Shown in pieces: positions 7,440 to 59,278 of a DNA stretch of 64,000 nucleotides; position 1 is the first letter of the stretch; each line of letters starts with the position of its first letter. The stretch comes from Candidatus Halobonum tyrrellensis G22 (GTDB lineage Archaea > Halobacteriota > Halobacteria > Halobacteriales > Haloferacaceae): positions 1 through 64,000 of the forward strand of contig NZ_ASGZ01000023.1 of the NCBI RefSeq assembly GCF_000495475.1, written 5' to 3'. The translations under genes were made by a program, and so were the position numbers. Under the pieces are notes generated by a model that did not search any database, had not been told where the DNA came from, and was given only the letters and a program-made list of their open reading frames with translations.

Positions 7440-7485
7440 GCTACCGCGGTCCTAAAGGAGTGGCGAAGGGCCGAGAAAACGGGAG

Positions 7486-7529
7486 TGCTCCGACAGGGAT
7501 TCGAACCCTGGTCATTGCCGTGAGAGGGC
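7486..7529 (-). repeat. att copy: displaced 3' fragment of tRNA-Glu
   Basis: Forty-four nucleotides identical to 8751-8794: discriminator base, acceptor 3' strand, T-arm, variable region and anticodon stem-loop. After 7529 the identity stops, so there is no D-arm and no 5' acceptor strand; this is not a functional tRNA. Similarity continues weakly into the outer flank (both copies are preceded by GAAAA...CGGGAG), implying that some 3' trailer was also carried by the element. Confidence 0.85.
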
Positions 7530-7824
7530 TATCAATTACTTCGACCAAATATGGTCAAAGCACGAAAGACGAATAACGGGGAATAAGTCGGAATAGGTAT
7601 CTCATTATTTCTATTCGACAATGAACGAAGGGATCCAGATAGAGCATATACTATTGAAGTCACTCTCTGGAGCGATCTACTACATCATCGGAAACATTGA
7701 GTAATAACTCTGCTTTGGAGCCGAGTCGCCAAATGGACGACCTCTCTGAGTTGCAAGTTACCCATGACAACTCTCCCATCTCCCTTAACCCCCGTCGAAT
7801 GGTGTATCATTCTCTTTTCGAACA
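7530..7824. other. AT-rich non-coding part of the island
   Basis: About 295 bp with no convincing gene. It holds a small inverted repeat GACCA-AATA-TGGTC (7544-7557) just inside the att copy, possibly a recombinase arm site or a terminator. It also holds a 27-codon reading frame (7621-7704) that I do not regard as supported. No integrase motif (R..HxxR..Y) is visible on either strand. Confidence 0.5.
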
Positions 7825-8631
7825 TCAATTTCTTGAACACTTTCTATTTTTTTGGTCATCGACAATAAATGGAGATTTTAGAACCATAGTGAACGGATTT
7901 GTCTCGACAAGACTCTCTAACAGGTCGTCATTTTGGATGTAGACGAGCGAATCGAAGACTTCAGTTCGATAAGTATTGGAGGGGCCTTCGTAGACGATAT
8001 TCCCGATAACTCGAACCTCATCTTCATCCAGATGTAGGTGATTATGTAAATTTGAGAAGGTATTATATTTACTCTTTTCTACACTTTTATCGTACCATTT
8101 GAAACCAAGAGGAGAACTCTCAACTACCTCTCTTTGAGAACCGGAAATAATGTGTGCATTAGTCTTATTTGTCCATCCAACATCTTCAATATCTATAAGT
8201 GTAAGTGGTTGCATGTTTTTTCCTGAAGAGTATTCATCGAAATCTCCTGTTTTCTCAGAGAACCCAATTATAGTCTCCAACTGAACGTTCCGGGCTGCAC
8301 TGTTCCCCGAATTTGAAATTCGAATCTTAACCGAGTTTTCTTGACTCCCCTGCCTAAAACCATCAACATGCAAGACCGGTCGTTCAAGTTCTCTCTGGAA
8401 ATCCTGCTGATCTTTTTGTATTTCCGACTGCCTCCAATAGAGTATTGCAAGTAGGCTCGTGAGGGCAAGACTCCCGAGTGCGTTAAACCAGCTGAGGAAA
8501 TCGTCTCTCAGATGGAAGTAGAGCAGAATCAGTATCCCTGAGAGGATGAATCCCCCGAATCCCACGTCCTTGAGAGTAGGATTGACCTCAATGTCGTCTC
8601 GCAGTTTCTCGACCAAATCAATATCCAGCAT
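7825..8631 (-). CDS. Island-encoded hypothetical protein with two membrane helices
   Basis: Protein of 268 residues that I cannot assign. The N-terminal ~25 residues are polar. Two hydrophobic helices follow (FGGFILSGILILLYFHL and LGSLALTSLLAILYW), then a short charged coiled-coil-like stretch (RQSEIQKDQQDFQRELERP) and a soluble beta-rich domain starting VKIRISNSGNSAARNVQLE. Topology suggests a membrane-anchored protein with its large C-terminal domain on one side. Codon use (many A/T third positions) and amino-acid composition (Lys and Asn rich, less acidic) differ sharply from the neighbours, indicating recent transfer. A TATA-like box at 8653-8660 places transcription start at the ATG. As the only cargo of a tRNA-site island it could be a host-interaction or defence gene, but that is speculation. 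Confidence 0.72.
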   Translation of the reverse strand: MLDIDLVEKLRDDIEVNPTLKDVGFGGFILSGILILLYFHLRDDFLSWFNALGSLALTSLLAILYWRQSEIQKDQQDFQRELERPVLHVDGFRQGSQENSVKIRISNSGNSAARNVQLETIIGFSEKTGDFDEYSSGKNMQPLTLIDIEDVGWTNKTNAHIISGSQREVVESSPLGFKWYDKSVEKSKYNTFSNLHNHLHLDEDEVRVIGNIVYEGPSNTYRTEVFDSLVYIQNDDLLESLVETNPFTMVLKSPFIVDDQKNRKCSRN

Positions 8632-8652
8632 ACTCCCTCACGTTAGAGAGAC

Positions 8653-8660
8653 GTAATAAC
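8653..8660 (-). promoter_or_regulatory. TATA-like box of the island gene
   Basis: GTTATTAC on the minus strand, centred about 25 nt upstream of the ATG at 8631. This is the spacing expected for a leaderless archaeal transcript and supports the chosen start. Confidence 0.5.
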
Positions 8661-8750
8661 AAGTCCGGGTTCAGTGGTCCTAGACTGTACCTGAACGCAT
8701 GTACGTGAACCAGTTACCACTCGGACTGACATCTCGAAAAACGGGAGAAG

Positions 8751-8825
8751 TGCTCCGACAGGGATTCGAACCCTGGTCATTGCCGTGAGAGGGCAATATG
8801 ATTGGCCGGACTACACTATCGGAGC
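8751..8825 (-). tRNA. tRNA-Glu(CUC)
   Basis: Complete 75-nt tRNA on the minus strand. The acceptor stem GCTCCGA pairs with TCGGAGC, followed by discriminator A at 8751. The anticodon stem TTGCC/GGCAA encloses the loop CTCTCAC, with anticodon CTC. The T-loop GTTCGAATC is standard. No CCA is encoded and there is no intron. It is the integration target of the adjacent island, whose left end carries a copy of the tRNA 3' part. Confidence 0.95.
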
Positions 8826-17633: not shown

Positions 17634-17708
17634 GCTCGGTTGGTGTAGTCCGGCCAATCATGTTGGCCTTTCGAGCCGACGACCAGGGTTCAAATCCCTG
17701 ACCGAGCA
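17634..17708 (+). tRNA. tRNA-Glu(UUC)
   Basis: Complete 75-nt tRNA. The acceptor stem GCTCGGT pairs with ACCGAGC, followed by discriminator A. The anticodon stem TTGGC/GCCGA encloses the loop CTTTCGA, with anticodon TTC. The D-arm sequence (GTGTAGTCCGGCCAATCA) is identical to that of the Glu(CUC) gene at 8.8 kb. No intron and no encoded CCA. An AT-rich GATTAAACC about 30 nt upstream is a likely promoter. No displaced 3' copy is visible downstream. Confidence 0.95.
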
Positions 17709-28385: not shown

Positions 28386-28444
28386 GCCGGCGGCGACCGT
28401 GAGCCGGGCGACCCGACCGCCCGCGTGCCGTCGACCCCGCGCTC

Positions 28445-28552
28445 CGACCCGCCCTCGCCGCGGCTCGCCGGCTCGCGATTCGCCGTCCCCGCGAGCCGAC
28501 CCGCCCTCGCCGCGGCTCGCCGGCTCGCGATTCGCCGTCCCCGCGAGCCGAC
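28445..28552. repeat. Two tandem 52-bp repeats with hairpins upstream of the helicase
   Basis: Two exact head-to-tail copies (28445-28496 and 28497-28548, plus 4 nt of a third). Each contains a perfect 9-bp stem CGGCTCGCG / CGCGAGCCG with a 12-nt loop (28469-28498 and 28521-28550). The block lies between the UPF0179 stop and the helicase start. It could be a double terminator for the upstream operon. Confidence 0.7.
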
Positions 28553-54185: not shown

Positions 54186-56987
54186 TCAGCGCCGCCGGGC
54201 GAGCAGCAGCGCGCCCGCGAGCGTCAGCAGCGCGACCAGCGCCGCGGACGCGCCGAAGCCGGGCGTGGTGGTCTCGGTGGCGCCGCCGCCCACCGCGGCG
54301 GTCTCGGTCCCGCCGAGCGCGGGCGCCTCCTCGGCCGTCGCCGTTTCGGTTCCGCCGTCGGTCGGGTTCGGCGTCCCGGTCGTCGCGTTCGCGCCGTCGC
54401 CGTCCACGCCGGGCGCGACCCCGACGGCGAACGCGGTGAACCCGTCGGTCTGTACCTCGTAGCGGTCGCCGCCGACGTTCGTCGTCTCCAGCGGCGTCCA
54501 CGAGCCGTCGACCAACCGGTAGACGACCACGTCGCCGGGCGACGCGCCCGCCGGAAGTTCCGACACGCTGAGCGAGACGGTGGCGCCGTCGAGCCGACGG
54601 GCGTTCAGCCCCACGCCCTCCGCCCGGAAGTACGCCACCGGCGTCGCGTCCGCGAGCGCGGGCACGCTCTCGGGCGATGCGGTCGGCGCGCCGACCTCGA
54701 TCCGGAAGTCGGCGGTGTCGAACCGGAACGCGAGCCGGAGCGACTCGACGGTGACGCCGGCGCCCGAGACGTCGACGTCGGCCTCGACGGGTTCGTCGGT
54801 GACCGCCTCGTCGACGGTGACCGTCGCGCCCGACGAGAGGTCGACCACCTCGTAGCTGGTTGCGGGACCGTCCCCGCCGCCCCCGCCGCCTCCGCCGCCG
54901 CTACTCCCACCGTCGCTACTTCCGCCGTCATCACCGCTGTCGCCGCCGTCGTCGGTCCCGTCGCCGCTACCGTCTCCGCCATCACCGCTGTCGCCGCCCT
55001 CGCTCTCGTTCCCGTCGACCGGCTGGGCCACCGTGGCGCTCAGCCGGAGTTCCGTCGGCGAGGGGGTGGCGTCGTGGCTGACCCGTACGGTCGCCCCCCG
55101 TTCGCCGGTCGCCTCGGGGGCGAACTCGACGGCGAGCGTCCGCTCGGCGCCCGGCGCGAGGTCGAACGACGCGTTCGACACCGCGTAGCCGGGCGCGGCG
55201 TCGGCGAGCGTGACGCCGGAGACGCGCACCGCGGCGTCGCCGGTGTTGCGGACCGTCACGTCGTACGTCACGTTCGACCCGAGCGTCACGTTCGCGCGGG
55301 CGGTCTCGGCGGCCGACAGCGAGACGTTCCCGGCGACCGCCCGGCCCGAGAGTTCGACGGTCGCGGGCGACCCCGCGCCGTCGTGGTCGAGCGTCAGCGT
55401 CCCCGCCGAACCGTTCGACCGCGCGGCGGGGGTCCACTCGACGGTGACCGCGCGCGCCTCGCCCGGCGCGAGGCTGCCGGTCGGGTCGCCGACCACCGCG
55501 AACGCCTCCGAGGCGGTGACGGCCGTCAGCGAGAGCGGCCCGGTGCCGACGTTCTCGACGGTCACGTTCCGCGCGGCCGTCTCGCCGACCGACACCGTAC
55601 CGAACGCCAGACTCGCGGGCGCGCTCAACTCCGCCGTGCCCGCGCCCGTGCCGGATAGCTGGACGGTCGTCGGCGACCCGTCGCCGCCGTGTTCCACCGT
55701 CAGCGTCGCCTCGTGCTCCCCCGCACCGGTGGGCGCGAACTCGACGGTCACGGTTCCGGTCCCGCCGGCCGCGACGGTGTCGGGCTCGTCCGTCACCGTG
55801 AACGCCGACGCGTTCGGCCCGGTTACCGTCGTGTTCGTGACCGACAGCGGGACGTTCCCGTCGTTGGCCACCGTCACCGCCTCGCTCGCGGTCCCGCCGA
55901 CCGACACCTCGCCGAACGAGAGACTCTCCTGGACGTCGATTGCGGCCGTCCCGGCGCCGGTGCCGGCGAGCGCGACCGAGGCGGGCGACCCGCTGGCGTT
56001 GTGCGCGACCGACAGCGTGGCCTGACGGGCGCCCGCCCCGGCGGGTGCGAACTCGACGGTTACGCTCCCGTTCGCGCCGGCCGCGACGGTGTCGGGCGCG
56101 TCCGTCACCGTGAACGCGCCGGCGTCCGCGCCGGTCACCTCCGCGCTCTCGAGCGACAGCGGCGCGCTCCCGCCGTTCGTCACCTCGACCGTTCCGGTCG
56201 CCGTCTCGCCGACCGACACTTCGCCGAACGAGAGGCTGCCCTGCACGTCGACCGTCGGCGTGCCGACGCCCGTCCCCGAGAGGCCGACCGTCGCGGGCGA
56301 CCCGCCGGCGTCGTGGTCGACCGACAGCGTCGACTCCTGTGCGCCCGCGCCCGTGGGCGTGAACCGCACGGTGACCGTCGCGCTCCCGTTGGGGGCGACG
56401 GTCGCGGGCGCGTCCGCGACGGAGAACGCCCCCGACGCGGTCGCGCTTTCGAGCGACAGCGTCGCGGTGCCGGGGTTCTCGACGGTCACCTCGGCGGTCG
56501 CCGTCTCGCCGACCGCCACCTCGCCGAACGAGACGGGACCGCCGACCCGTATCTCGGGCGTGCCGACGCCCGTCCCGGATAGCTGGACGGTCGCGGGTGA
56601 CTCGCTCGCGTCGTGGTCGACCGACAGTACGGCCTGTTCGGACCCGACGCTCGTCGGCGCGAACTCGACGGTGACCGTCTCGGTGGCGTTGGCCGCGACG
56701 GTGTCGGGCGCGTTCGTGACGGTGAACGCCGATACGTTCGGATCGACCACTTCCGCCCCGACGACCGACAGCGGGGCGTTCCCGCCGTTGGTCAGTTCCA
56801 CCTCGGCCGTCGCCGTCTCGCCGACAGCCACCTCGCCGAACGAGGCGTCGCCGGCGACCTGGAGTTCGGCGGTCCCGGTGCCAGCGCCGGTGAGCGCGAC
56901 CGTCGCGGGCGATCCGCCCGCGTCGTGGTCGACCGACAGTACGGCTTGTTTGGACCCGACGCTCGTCGGCGCGAACTCGACGGTCAC
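54186..56987 (-). CDS. C-terminal part of giant subtilase: ASH/HYDIN-like repeats, PGF-pre-PGF and PGF-CTERM
   Basis: Frame of 933 residues, the continuation of the protease at 56984-59278 after a one-base loss near 57000. It starts inside the second repeat, runs through six more ~105-residue choice-of-anchor-D (ASH/HYDIN-like) repeats (typical unit: SFGEVAVGETATAEV, then TVTVEFAPTSVGS, then LSVDHDASESPATVQLSGTG), a Gly-Ser-Asp linker, a PGF-pre-PGF domain (SGAGVTVESLRLAFRFDTAD) and a PGF-CTERM signal (TTTPGFGASAAL, helix, ARRR) for archaeosortase-mediated lipid anchoring. GTG at 56987 overlaps the upstream TGA (GTGA), so coupled restart could make this half, but it has no export signal. Confidence 0.8.
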   Translation of the reverse strand: MTVEFAPTSVGSKQAVLSVDHDAGGSPATVALTGAGTGTAELQVAGDASFGEVAVGETATAEVELTNGGNAPLSVVGAEVVDPNVSAFTVTNAPDTVAANATETVTVEFAPTSVGSEQAVLSVDHDASESPATVQLSGTGVGTPEIRVGGPVSFGEVAVGETATAEVTVENPGTATLSLESATASGAFSVADAPATVAPNGSATVTVRFTPTGAGAQESTLSVDHDAGGSPATVGLSGTGVGTPTVDVQGSLSFGEVSVGETATGTVEVTNGGSAPLSLESAEVTGADAGAFTVTDAPDTVAAGANGSVTVEFAPAGAGARQATLSVAHNASGSPASVALAGTGAGTAAIDVQESLSFGEVSVGGTASEAVTVANDGNVPLSVTNTTVTGPNASAFTVTDEPDTVAAGGTGTVTVEFAPTGAGEHEATLTVEHGGDGSPTTVQLSGTGAGTAELSAPASLAFGTVSVGETAARNVTVENVGTGPLSLTAVTASEAFAVVGDPTGSLAPGEARAVTVEWTPAARSNGSAGTLTLDHDGAGSPATVELSGRAVAGNVSLSAAETARANVTLGSNVTYDVTVRNTGDAAVRVSGVTLADAAPGYAVSNASFDLAPGAERTLAVEFAPEATGERGATVRVSHDATPSPTELRLSATVAQPVDGNESEGGDSGDGGDGSGDGTDDGGDSGDDGGSSDGGSSGGGGGGGGGDGPATSYEVVDLSSGATVTVDEAVTDEPVEADVDVSGAGVTVESLRLAFRFDTADFRIEVGAPTASPESVPALADATPVAYFRAEGVGLNARRLDGATVSLSVSELPAGASPGDVVVYRLVDGSWTPLETTNVGGDRYEVQTDGFTAFAVGVAPGVDGDGANATTGTPNPTDGGTETATAEEAPALGGTETAAVGGGATETTTPGFGASAALVALLTLAGALLLARRR

Positions 56988-59278
56988 GGTCCCGTTCGCG
57001 CCGGGGCGACGGTGTCGGGCGCGTTCGTGACGGTGAACGCTTCCGCGTCAGCACCGGCCACTCCGACTTCGGCGACCGATAGCGGCGCGGTACCGGTGTT
57101 CTCGACGCTCACGTTCCGCGTCGCGGTCTCGCCGACGGACACGTTCCCGAACGCGCGGGTCGCGGGCACCCGAACCGAGGCGGTGCCGACGCCGGTACCG
57201 GAGAGGCCGACGGTCAGCGGCGACCCGCTGGCGTTGTGCGCGACCGACAGCGTGGCCCGCTGGGAGCCGACGCTCGTCGGCGCGAACTCGACGGTCACGG
57301 TCCCGTTCCCGCCGGGCGCGACGGTCGCGGGCGCGTTCGTGACGGTGAACGCCGACGCGTTCGGTCCGGCTATCTCCGTGTCCGTGACCGACAGCGGCGC
57401 GTTTCCGTCGTTTTCGACGGTCACGTTCAGGGTCGTCGACCCGCCGACGGTCACGCTCCCGGCGCTCGCGTTCGCTGGCGCGCCCGCCTCGGGTCGGGCG
57501 TCGACGGCGCCGGAGCCGGTGTCGCCGCCGCCGACGCTGGCGACGGCCGCGCCGGCGTCGACCAGTCCGGCGCCCGCGTTACTGTTCGGCTCGCTCCCGC
57601 CGACGGGCGACGCCGTCTCGGTGAGCGTCGTCTCCACCTCCGCGGGCGAGAGGTCGGGGTCGACCCCGAGGAGGAGCGCCGCCGCGCCGGCGGTGTGGGG
57701 GGCGGCCGCGGACGTGCCGTAGAAGCTCGACCCCCCGTACGCGCCCGTCGAGACGTTGTCCGGGCCGACCAGGTCGGGCTTCCGCCGACCGTCGACGGTC
57801 GGCCCGCGCGAGGAGAACGGCTCCAGTTCGCCCGTCGCGGCGTCGACGGCGCCGACCGTCGTCGCGGCCGGGGCGACCCCCGGTTCGGTGACGCTCCGCG
57901 CCGACGTCGAGGGGGTGAGTCGCTGGGCGTCGCCCGCGAACGCGGTGAAGTAACTGGAGTTATCGGCGTCTTGGCTCCGCACCGCGACGTAGTATCTGCC
58001 GTACGCGCCCGACATCTCGAACCGTTCGAGCGGCTCCTGCGACCCGGTCTGGGCCGTGTCGACCACCTCGTACGCCATGCCGCCGTCGGGGTCGCCGTCG
58101 TCGAAGTCGGACTCGTACTGGTAGAGGTACAGCGCGTAGTCCTGGTCGCTGTCGGGCCAGTCGTCCCACTGGAGCGCGAACAGCATCGACGACCCCGGCG
58201 ACACCGTCTCCACCGTCATCAGTTCGTCGTCGCCCGCGAAGTTGAGCCAGCCGTCGCCGTCGGGGTCGCTCCACTGGCCGTCCCAGTGGTTGCCGCCGCC
58301 GGCGTTGCCCGCCGCCACGAAGTACGGCGTCCCGGCGTCGACGCTCCGTTGGATCTCCGTCGACAGCGGCGCCGTCCCGTCGAGGGGACCGACGTCCTTC
58401 CAGCCGAGCGACATCGACACCGCGTCGACGTCCGTCTCCTCGCGGAGCCACTCGACGGCCGCCTGCGCCTGGAGGTACGTCCCGACCCGGACCGCGACGA
58501 CGTTCGCGCCGGGCGCCGCGTCCGACACCAGCGCGGCCGTCGCGGTGCCGTGCGCGCCGACGGTTCCGTTTCCGATGCCGCCTTCGTGGTAGTTCCGGTG
58601 GGCGACGACGCCGTCGAGTTCCGGATTCGAGAGGTTGAACCCGCCCACGTCGACCACCGCGACGGTCACGTTCTCGCCGGTGACCCCGCGGTCGTGGAGC
58701 GCGGTCGCGTTGATACTGCCGACCCCCTCGCTCACCACGGTCGGCTCGGGCCTGCGGGGTTTCCTGACGTACGAGACGTCGGACCGCTCGGCGAGCGCCC
58801 CGAGCGCGGCCCGCGGGAGCGTCGCCTGGACCGCGTCGCCGTGGACCAACTCGACCGTGCCGTCGAGCGCGCGCACGGCCGCCGCGACCGACTCGGCCGC
58901 GCCGGGGTCGGTCAACACGACGACCGTCACCGGGGCCGGGTCGTCGACCGACGCCGCCGCGACCGAGCGGTCGGCCGTCGCGCCCCGGTCGCCCCTGAGC
59001 GCCGCCGAGAGCTTCCGCGCCGCGTCGTCGGTCCCCGACCCGTCGGCGGTCGCGGTCCTCGTCGCGTCCGCGTCCGCCTCCGTGCTGTTCGTCGCGTTCG
59101 TCGCGTTCGTCGTCCCGTCGGCGACCGACGGCGCGGTCACAGCGCCGGCCGTCGCGCCGCGGTCGGTCGGACCGGCGGGCGCGCCGAGGCGTCCGGCGGG
59201 GTCGATTGCCCCGGCCGCGGGGGCGGCGACCATGAGGAGCGCGAAGACGACGGCGGCCGCGCGCGTACGCCGACTCAC
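56984..59278 (-). CDS. Subtilisin-like serine protease (S8), N-terminal part before frameshift
   Basis: Frame of 764 residues. Signal peptide 1-24, a Thr/Asn-rich pro-region (30-110), an I9-like propeptide (113-178, ending VSYVRKPRRPEP), then the S8 catalytic domain with D210 (VAVVDVGGF), H243 (GAHGTATAAL), N325 (AAGNAGGG) and S523 (YGTSAAAPHTAG). An insert at about 330-455 resembles a P-domain-like beta region. Two ASH/HYDIN-like repeats follow; the second breaks off at NAPDTVAPARTGP where its sister repeats read TVAPGGNGTVTVEFAP. The intact gene would encode about 1,697 residues (54186-59278). It overlaps the upstream lipoprotein by 4 nt (ATGA). Role: secreted, probably cell-anchored protease. 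Confidence 0.88.
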   Translation of the reverse strand: MSRRTRAAAVVFALLMVAAPAAGAIDPAGRLGAPAGPTDRGATAGAVTAPSVADGTTNATNATNSTEADADATRTATADGSGTDDAARKLSAALRGDRGATADRSVAAASVDDPAPVTVVVLTDPGAAESVAAAVRALDGTVELVHGDAVQATLPRAALGALAERSDVSYVRKPRRPEPTVVSEGVGSINATALHDRGVTGENVTVAVVDVGGFNLSNPELDGVVAHRNYHEGGIGNGTVGAHGTATAALVSDAAPGANVVAVRVGTYLQAQAAVEWLREETDVDAVSMSLGWKDVGPLDGTAPLSTEIQRSVDAGTPYFVAAGNAGGGNHWDGQWSDPDGDGWLNFAGDDELMTVETVSPGSSMLFALQWDDWPDSDQDYALYLYQYESDFDDGDPDGGMAYEVVDTAQTGSQEPLERFEMSGAYGRYYVAVRSQDADNSSYFTAFAGDAQRLTPSTSARSVTEPGVAPAATTVGAVDAATGELEPFSSRGPTVDGRRKPDLVGPDNVSTGAYGGSSFYGTSAAAPHTAGAAALLLGVDPDLSPAEVETTLTETASPVGGSEPNSNAGAGLVDAGAAVASVGGGDTGSGAVDARPEAGAPANASAGSVTVGGSTTLNVTVENDGNAPLSVTDTEIAGPNASAFTVTNAPATVAPGGNGTVTVEFAPTSVGSQRATLSVAHNASGSPLTVGLSGTGVGTASVRVPATRAFGNVSVGETATRNVSVENTGTAPLSVAEVGVAGADAEAFTVTNAPDTVAPARTGP

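Follow-up and report, generated by a model that had tools for sequence, protein, structure and literature searches.

An integrase-less, one-gene island at tRNA-Glu(CUC) in a haloarchaeal genome, probably the remainder of a larger integrated element

The 64,000-nucleotide stretch of Candidatus Halobonum tyrrellensis G22 DNA analysed here (the window) contains an integrated island of 1.27 kb, bounded by an intact tRNA-Glu(CUC) gene and an exact copy of the 3′ part of that gene, with a single cargo gene and no detectable integrase. The island resembles the cis-mobilizable elements (CIMEs), which keep attL and attR and have lost their integration and transfer genes (PMC5704250), and it is probably what erosion has left of an element inserted by an integrase clade that targets tRNA-Glu in haloarchaea. 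Islands of this kind are already known; the unusual property of this archaeal example is its small size, and it points to a well-defined integrase clade for possible mobilisation in trans.

Boundaries and composition of the island

The tRNA-Glu(CUC) gene is called as intact by both ARAGORN and Rfam, and the copy beyond the cargo gene matches it in 44 of 44 nucleotides and in the same orientation (Table 1). These 44 nucleotides, all inside the tRNA gene, correspond to tRNA positions 32 to 75 and span it from anticodon loop to 3′ end. With the adjoining bases included, the two copies are identical over 46 nt (7484-7529 = 8749-8794), and a longer direct repeat (7484-7532 / 8749-8797) is 98% identical over 49 nt, giving a repeat-to-repeat unit of 1265 bp. 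Among the exact direct repeats of the 64-kb window the att repeat ranks second in length, and a search of the whole genome with up to three mismatches gave two copies of the att core and no third. The DNA between the repeats has a GC content of 42.7%, compared with a mean of 71.1% (sd 4.5%) for pieces of 1220 bp across the window, and no other piece of this length is as low. The first-pass annotation of this DNA had described an exact tRNA 3′ copy bounding an AT-rich insert, and both the repeat search and the GC comparison bear this out.

Table 1. Features of the island and its boundaries, in window coordinates.
Feature	Position	Strand	Basis
attR core, exact 44-nt tRNA 3′ copy; repeat exact to 7484	7486..7529	-	repeat search
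AT-rich insert, 1220 bp, 42.7% GC	7530..8749		GC comparison across window
Distal non-coding arm, contains 81-aa ORF 7697-7942 (+)	7530..7824		
Lone cargo gene, 268 aa; 2 predicted N-terminal membrane helices, coiled stretch, beta-sandwich-like C-terminal domain	7825..8631	-	
tRNA-side non-coding arm; T-run directly after tRNA	8632..8749	-	
TTATTA, candidate TATA box, 22 nt upstream of cargo ATG	8654..8659	-	by eye, weak
attL core, tRNA positions 32-75; repeat exact to 8749	8751..8794	-	repeat search
tRNA-Glu(CUC), intact, carries attL	8750..8825	-	ARAGORN, Rfam

We also note that the window holds other long exact direct repeats (57, 42 and 39 nt; 28444-28552 and 55984-57310) that are unrelated to the island, and a second tRNA-Glu gene of the UUC type at 17634-17708 (+), 9 kb away, where the GC profile shows no AT-rich island.

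tRNA-Glu(CUC) is an integration hotspot

Family-wide and order-wide pattern scans found second, partial copies of the tRNA-Glu(CUC) 3′ part in many haloarchaea, and one clade of tyrosine integrases adjoins this tRNA gene in dozens of species. The integrases of the clade are mostly 54-72% identical among themselves and occupy 74 loci in named haloarchaeal genomes; 34 of the 64 loci tested lie 147-347 nt 3′ of tRNA-Glu(CUC), and five of the 64 are beside tRNA-Glu(UUC). The integrase gene is found just 3′ of the tRNA in five genomes (G148, G151, G063, G394 and G217), and in G023 it is situated some 11 kb into the island. The att copy starts at tRNA position 32 in the window and at about positions 29-37 in the other tRNA-Glu(CUC) elements, and all of these copies reach the 3′ end of the tRNA. 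The window island thus has the same att core, from anticodon loop to 3′ end, as the elements that carry an integrase, and it differs from them in having no integrase gene beside the tRNA. The genes of its left flank were found beside tRNA-Glu in none of the genomes examined.

Comparison of the islands shorter than 10 kb at tRNA-Glu(CUC), which span 1.3-7 kb, shows the integrase in every condition from intact to missing. Three islands have an intact integrase (G394, 3.1 kb; G148, 5.1 kb; G217, 5.4 kb). The gene carries a frameshift in G228 (4.9 kb), both G088 (5.8 kb) and G135 (7.0 kb) have a truncated version, and G466 (3.8 kb) retains short C-terminal remnants. No integrase is detected in four islands: those of G382 (4.4 kb), G140 (2.36 kb) and G220 (1.77 kb), and that of the window, which at 1.27 kb is the smallest found at this tRNA gene. 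The earlier description of the locus as an integrated island that lacks an integrase is upheld by the geometry of its att sites, by its foreign base composition and by the large number of related islands at tRNA-Glu(CUC).

Two of these relatives carry recognisable cargo. The integrase-truncated island of G135 encodes a HepT toxin with its nucleotidyltransferase partner (L058:6181-7045), and the integrase-less island of G140 encodes a DUF6884 protein, which corresponds to PADLOC family PDC-M57A (L057:5962-7034), suggesting a bias towards defence or toxin-antitoxin functions.

Integrase and attP-arm traces in the insert

Two candidate traces of a former integration module were considered; the first is rejected and the second is not claimed. 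The product of the 81-aa ORF at 7697-7942 (+) could be aligned with integrase N-termini ('MDDLSELQV...SLNPRR'), and with a profile of 10 sequences this alignment was equalled by 1 of 953 shuffles; with a profile of 34 sequences the signal was gone (132 of 2000 shuffles and 60 of 1000 real pieces), and the ORF lies at the wrong end of the insert. The other candidate, a decayed attP arm at 8632-8749, is slightly but not significantly similar to the arm found with the tRNA-Glu integrase clade. In the first tests this was equalled by 0 of 200 and then 2 of 2000 shuffles, but by 18 of 2000 real pieces, and when more arms were included the counts rose to 10 of 1000 shuffles and 107 of 1500 real pieces. 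A search with nhmmer gave no match of the insert to the conserved attP arm. No integrase homology was left in the insert under the stricter controls, and the genome itself contains no match to a tRNA-Glu-clade integrase at E<=1e-8. Since neither an integrase trace nor an attP-arm trace survives these controls, we infer erosion from a larger element rather than see it.

The cargo gene and its family

The cargo gene fills about two thirds of the insert and is the one real ORF there; its open frame of 270 codons is longer than any seen among 1000 dinucleotide shuffles, where the maximum was 215. The TATA box that the first-pass annotation assigned to the gene amounts to a TTATTA, which is weak evidence. 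The hydrophobic segments of the gene product, at about residues 19-41 and 46-64, agree with the helices that a single-sequence AF2 model of low confidence (mean pLDDT 43) places at 21-42 and 45-82. This supports the prediction of two membrane helices, and with it the first-pass reading of the insert as encoding one protein of this type. The C-terminal domain contains an SNxGNxAxNV motif. Searches with the protein gave no Pfam domain above cut-off, no PHROGs match below E 0.05, no PADLOC defence family at E<=1, and no credible match among NCBIfam models or PDB sequences. With its single ORF and no PHROG below E 0.05, the insert shows no virion or replication genes, and no close relatives of the cargo gene or of the insert DNA were found in plasmids, phages, IMG/VR or GTDB contigs.

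A profile (A1) was built from remote homologues that were marginal pairwise hits, and a class-wide search with this profile places the family, whose limits are loose for this reason, in 72 of 294 Halobacteria genomes. The family is marked by two N-terminal membrane helices (2TM), a coil, a beta-sandwich and the motif LxxLYxxQ...Q...RPxL...SNxGxxxA, and the window cargo fits this layout in both alignment and profile. In all 29 loci compared, the family gene has a lower GC content than its flanks (mean 45% vs 57% GC), and several members occur as single genes within GC-rich DNA. Judged from the profile and alignments, the cargo is a member of a broad haloarchaeal family that is accessory and uncharacterised. 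Because the ORF is intact and the family widespread, a retained function of the cargo is plausible.

The association of the family with tRNA genes is borderline: 4 of 29 members lie within 1.5 kb of one (P=0.05). The first-pass annotation had called for a search for the cargo family beside other tRNA 3′ copies, and this returned one clear positive, in G107 at tRNA-Val. Two further members are directly beside tRNA genes, at tRNA-Ala(CGC) in G022 and at tRNA-Val(CAC) in G316; both do adjoin the tRNA, and we count them as neighbours and not as clear positives.

One-gene islets at tRNA-Val(CAC)

The clear positive is a 1.44-kb islet next to tRNA-Val(CAC) in another genus of the Haloferacaceae (G107; L215:7304-8964). 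Its sole gene is a 2TM family member of 320 aa (profile E 4e-25), it has no integrase, and it is bounded by one exact 23-nt and one near-exact 20-nt copy of the tRNA-Val(CAC) 3′ part. The cargo proteins of the window and of G107 are only remotely related. A congener, G115 (L235), has a clean empty site, with the left flank directly adjoining tRNA-Val; five other congeners keep an extra tRNA-Val 3′ copy alone. In G108 (L240), whose flanks are 96-97% identical to those of G107, the site is occupied by a different single gene, encoding a PLD-family protein of 375 aa (PF13091) with a weak resemblance to DrmC. This islet measures 1.33 kb with 47% GC, and no tRNA copy was found on its distal side. 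The inserts of G107 and G108 have no common sequence, and this speaks for two independent insertions and against the uneven decay of a single element. Integrase-less one-gene islets at tRNA genes therefore recur, and can differ between sister species.

We observe that the site in G112 (L238-L239) holds an island of about 20 kb with an integrase, a type IIG-like restriction-methylase and an HKD-Snf2 helicase, so that across the genus tRNA-Val(CAC) is a variable site that may be empty or hold extra copies, one 2TM gene, one PLD-family gene or this defence-type island.

Origin of the island

We propose that a tyrosine integrase of the haloarchaeal tRNA-Glu clade would have inserted an element across the anticodon-loop-to-3′-end core of tRNA-Glu(CUC), leaving the intact tRNA gene (attL) on one side and the 44-nt copy (attR) on the other. 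The integrase would then have been lost, during or after integration, and the island that remains would hold one accessory gene for a putatively membrane-anchored protein. The island cannot now excise by itself because the integrase gene is absent; attL and attR may still be recombinable by an incoming cognate integrase. We favour this reading, and hold it to be probable, because the tRNA-Glu(CUC) islands display integrases at every stage of loss.

The first-pass annotation had left the choice between a remnant and a satellite mobilised in trans, and these do appear to be the right pair of alternatives: integrase decay at tRNA-Glu favours the former, and the islets at tRNA-Val keep the latter alive. 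An element of this second sort would be a cassette of a tRNA 3′ core and an accessory gene that never had an integrase of its own and was moved in trans by the integrases of larger elements. The G107 islet, a second integrase-less one-gene insertion with a family member, would fit such a cassette, as would the empty site in G115, the 3′ copies standing alone in five congeners and the unrelated single gene at the same place in the close sister G108. The perfect att repeats of the window point the same way, since they allow for a recent insertion, perhaps of an element that already lacked an integrase. However, the small islands at tRNA-Glu form an integrase decay series, no tRNA copy bounds the G108 islet distally, no excised circle was observed, the cargo proteins of the window and G107 share only a remote relationship, and the window genome has no cognate integrase that could act in trans. 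On balance we regard a cassette as clearly the less probable origin.

Two further explanations dispense with an integrase altogether. Repeats alone cannot tell the mechanism that made them, and repeat-associated indels are frequent in haloarchaea (PMC3119063), so the tRNA copy might derive from segmental duplication or homologous exchange; this is highly improbable, as the boundaries of the copy coincide with the att sites of integrase-bearing tRNA-Glu elements and the bracketed DNA is foreign. The idea that the cargo is a vertically inherited, AT-rich core gene and the repeat incidental found no support and is harder still to credit, given the presence of the family in only 72 of 294 genomes, the absence of a near relative from GTDB contigs, plasmids, phages and IMG/VR, and the low GC content of family genes relative to their flanks in 29 of 29 loci.

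For the remnant that we prefer, the cargo might be expressed and of benefit to the cell, perhaps by protecting it from other elements. This is a tentative suggestion made by analogy, because comparators at tRNA-Glu(CUC) carry toxin-antitoxin or candidate defence genes; the recurrence of the 2TM family and its exchange with a PLD-family gene at tRNA-Val likewise make an accessory, perhaps defensive, function a candidate. More speculatively, haloarchaeal tRNA genes might host interchangeable, recombinase-less one-gene cassettes that are inserted and exchanged by the integrases of other elements, with the 2TM family as one recurrent type, found at tRNA-Glu here and at tRNA-Val in another genus. 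If one-gene islets are mobile, archaeal tRNA genes would be landing sites for single accessory genes, and genes would be exchanged in this way unnoticed by island finders that rely on integrases.

Relation to known elements

The window island shares with CIMEs its boundaries, an attL and an attR at the 3′ end of a tRNA gene, and the lack of integration or transfer genes of its own. It differs in being archaeal, in its single gene and small size, and in showing no sign of an ICE or IME parent. Dyall-Smith et al. 2011 (PMC3119063) described integrases next to tRNA-Glu in Hfx. volcanii (HVO_2815A), Hgm. borinquense and Nab. magadii, and truncated copies of the tRNA at distances of 5-48 kb; the kind of target tRNA and the truncated copy as boundary are the same as in the window, whereas these elements are far larger and have an integrase at the tRNA. 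The 6.7-kb tRNA-Thr remnant of Haloquadratum walsbyi (PMC3119063) resembles the window island in that it has a partial tRNA copy with no integrase nearby and was read as a remnant. Its copy has 5 mismatches in 57 nt and it contains many pseudogenes, while the repeat in the window is perfect and the gene intact. Thaumarchaeal cryptic integrated elements (PMC6563490) are likewise small, integrated and often at tRNA genes, yet they are multigene elements of 2.6-98 kb.

Additional tRNA copies and fragments

G014 carries two near-identical full tRNA-Glu(CUC) genes 242 bp apart (L060:8204-8520), so repeats of this tRNA gene do not always mark islands. Beyond several haloarchaeal tRNAs or att copies, at distances of about 70-170 nt, there are extra fragments of the T-arm and acceptor (L057:5646-5790; L058:3059-3201; L119:7838-8103; L123:8422-8576; L215:8766-8964). 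These are perhaps scars of earlier integrations, and they often have an inverted partner with which they could form a hairpin.
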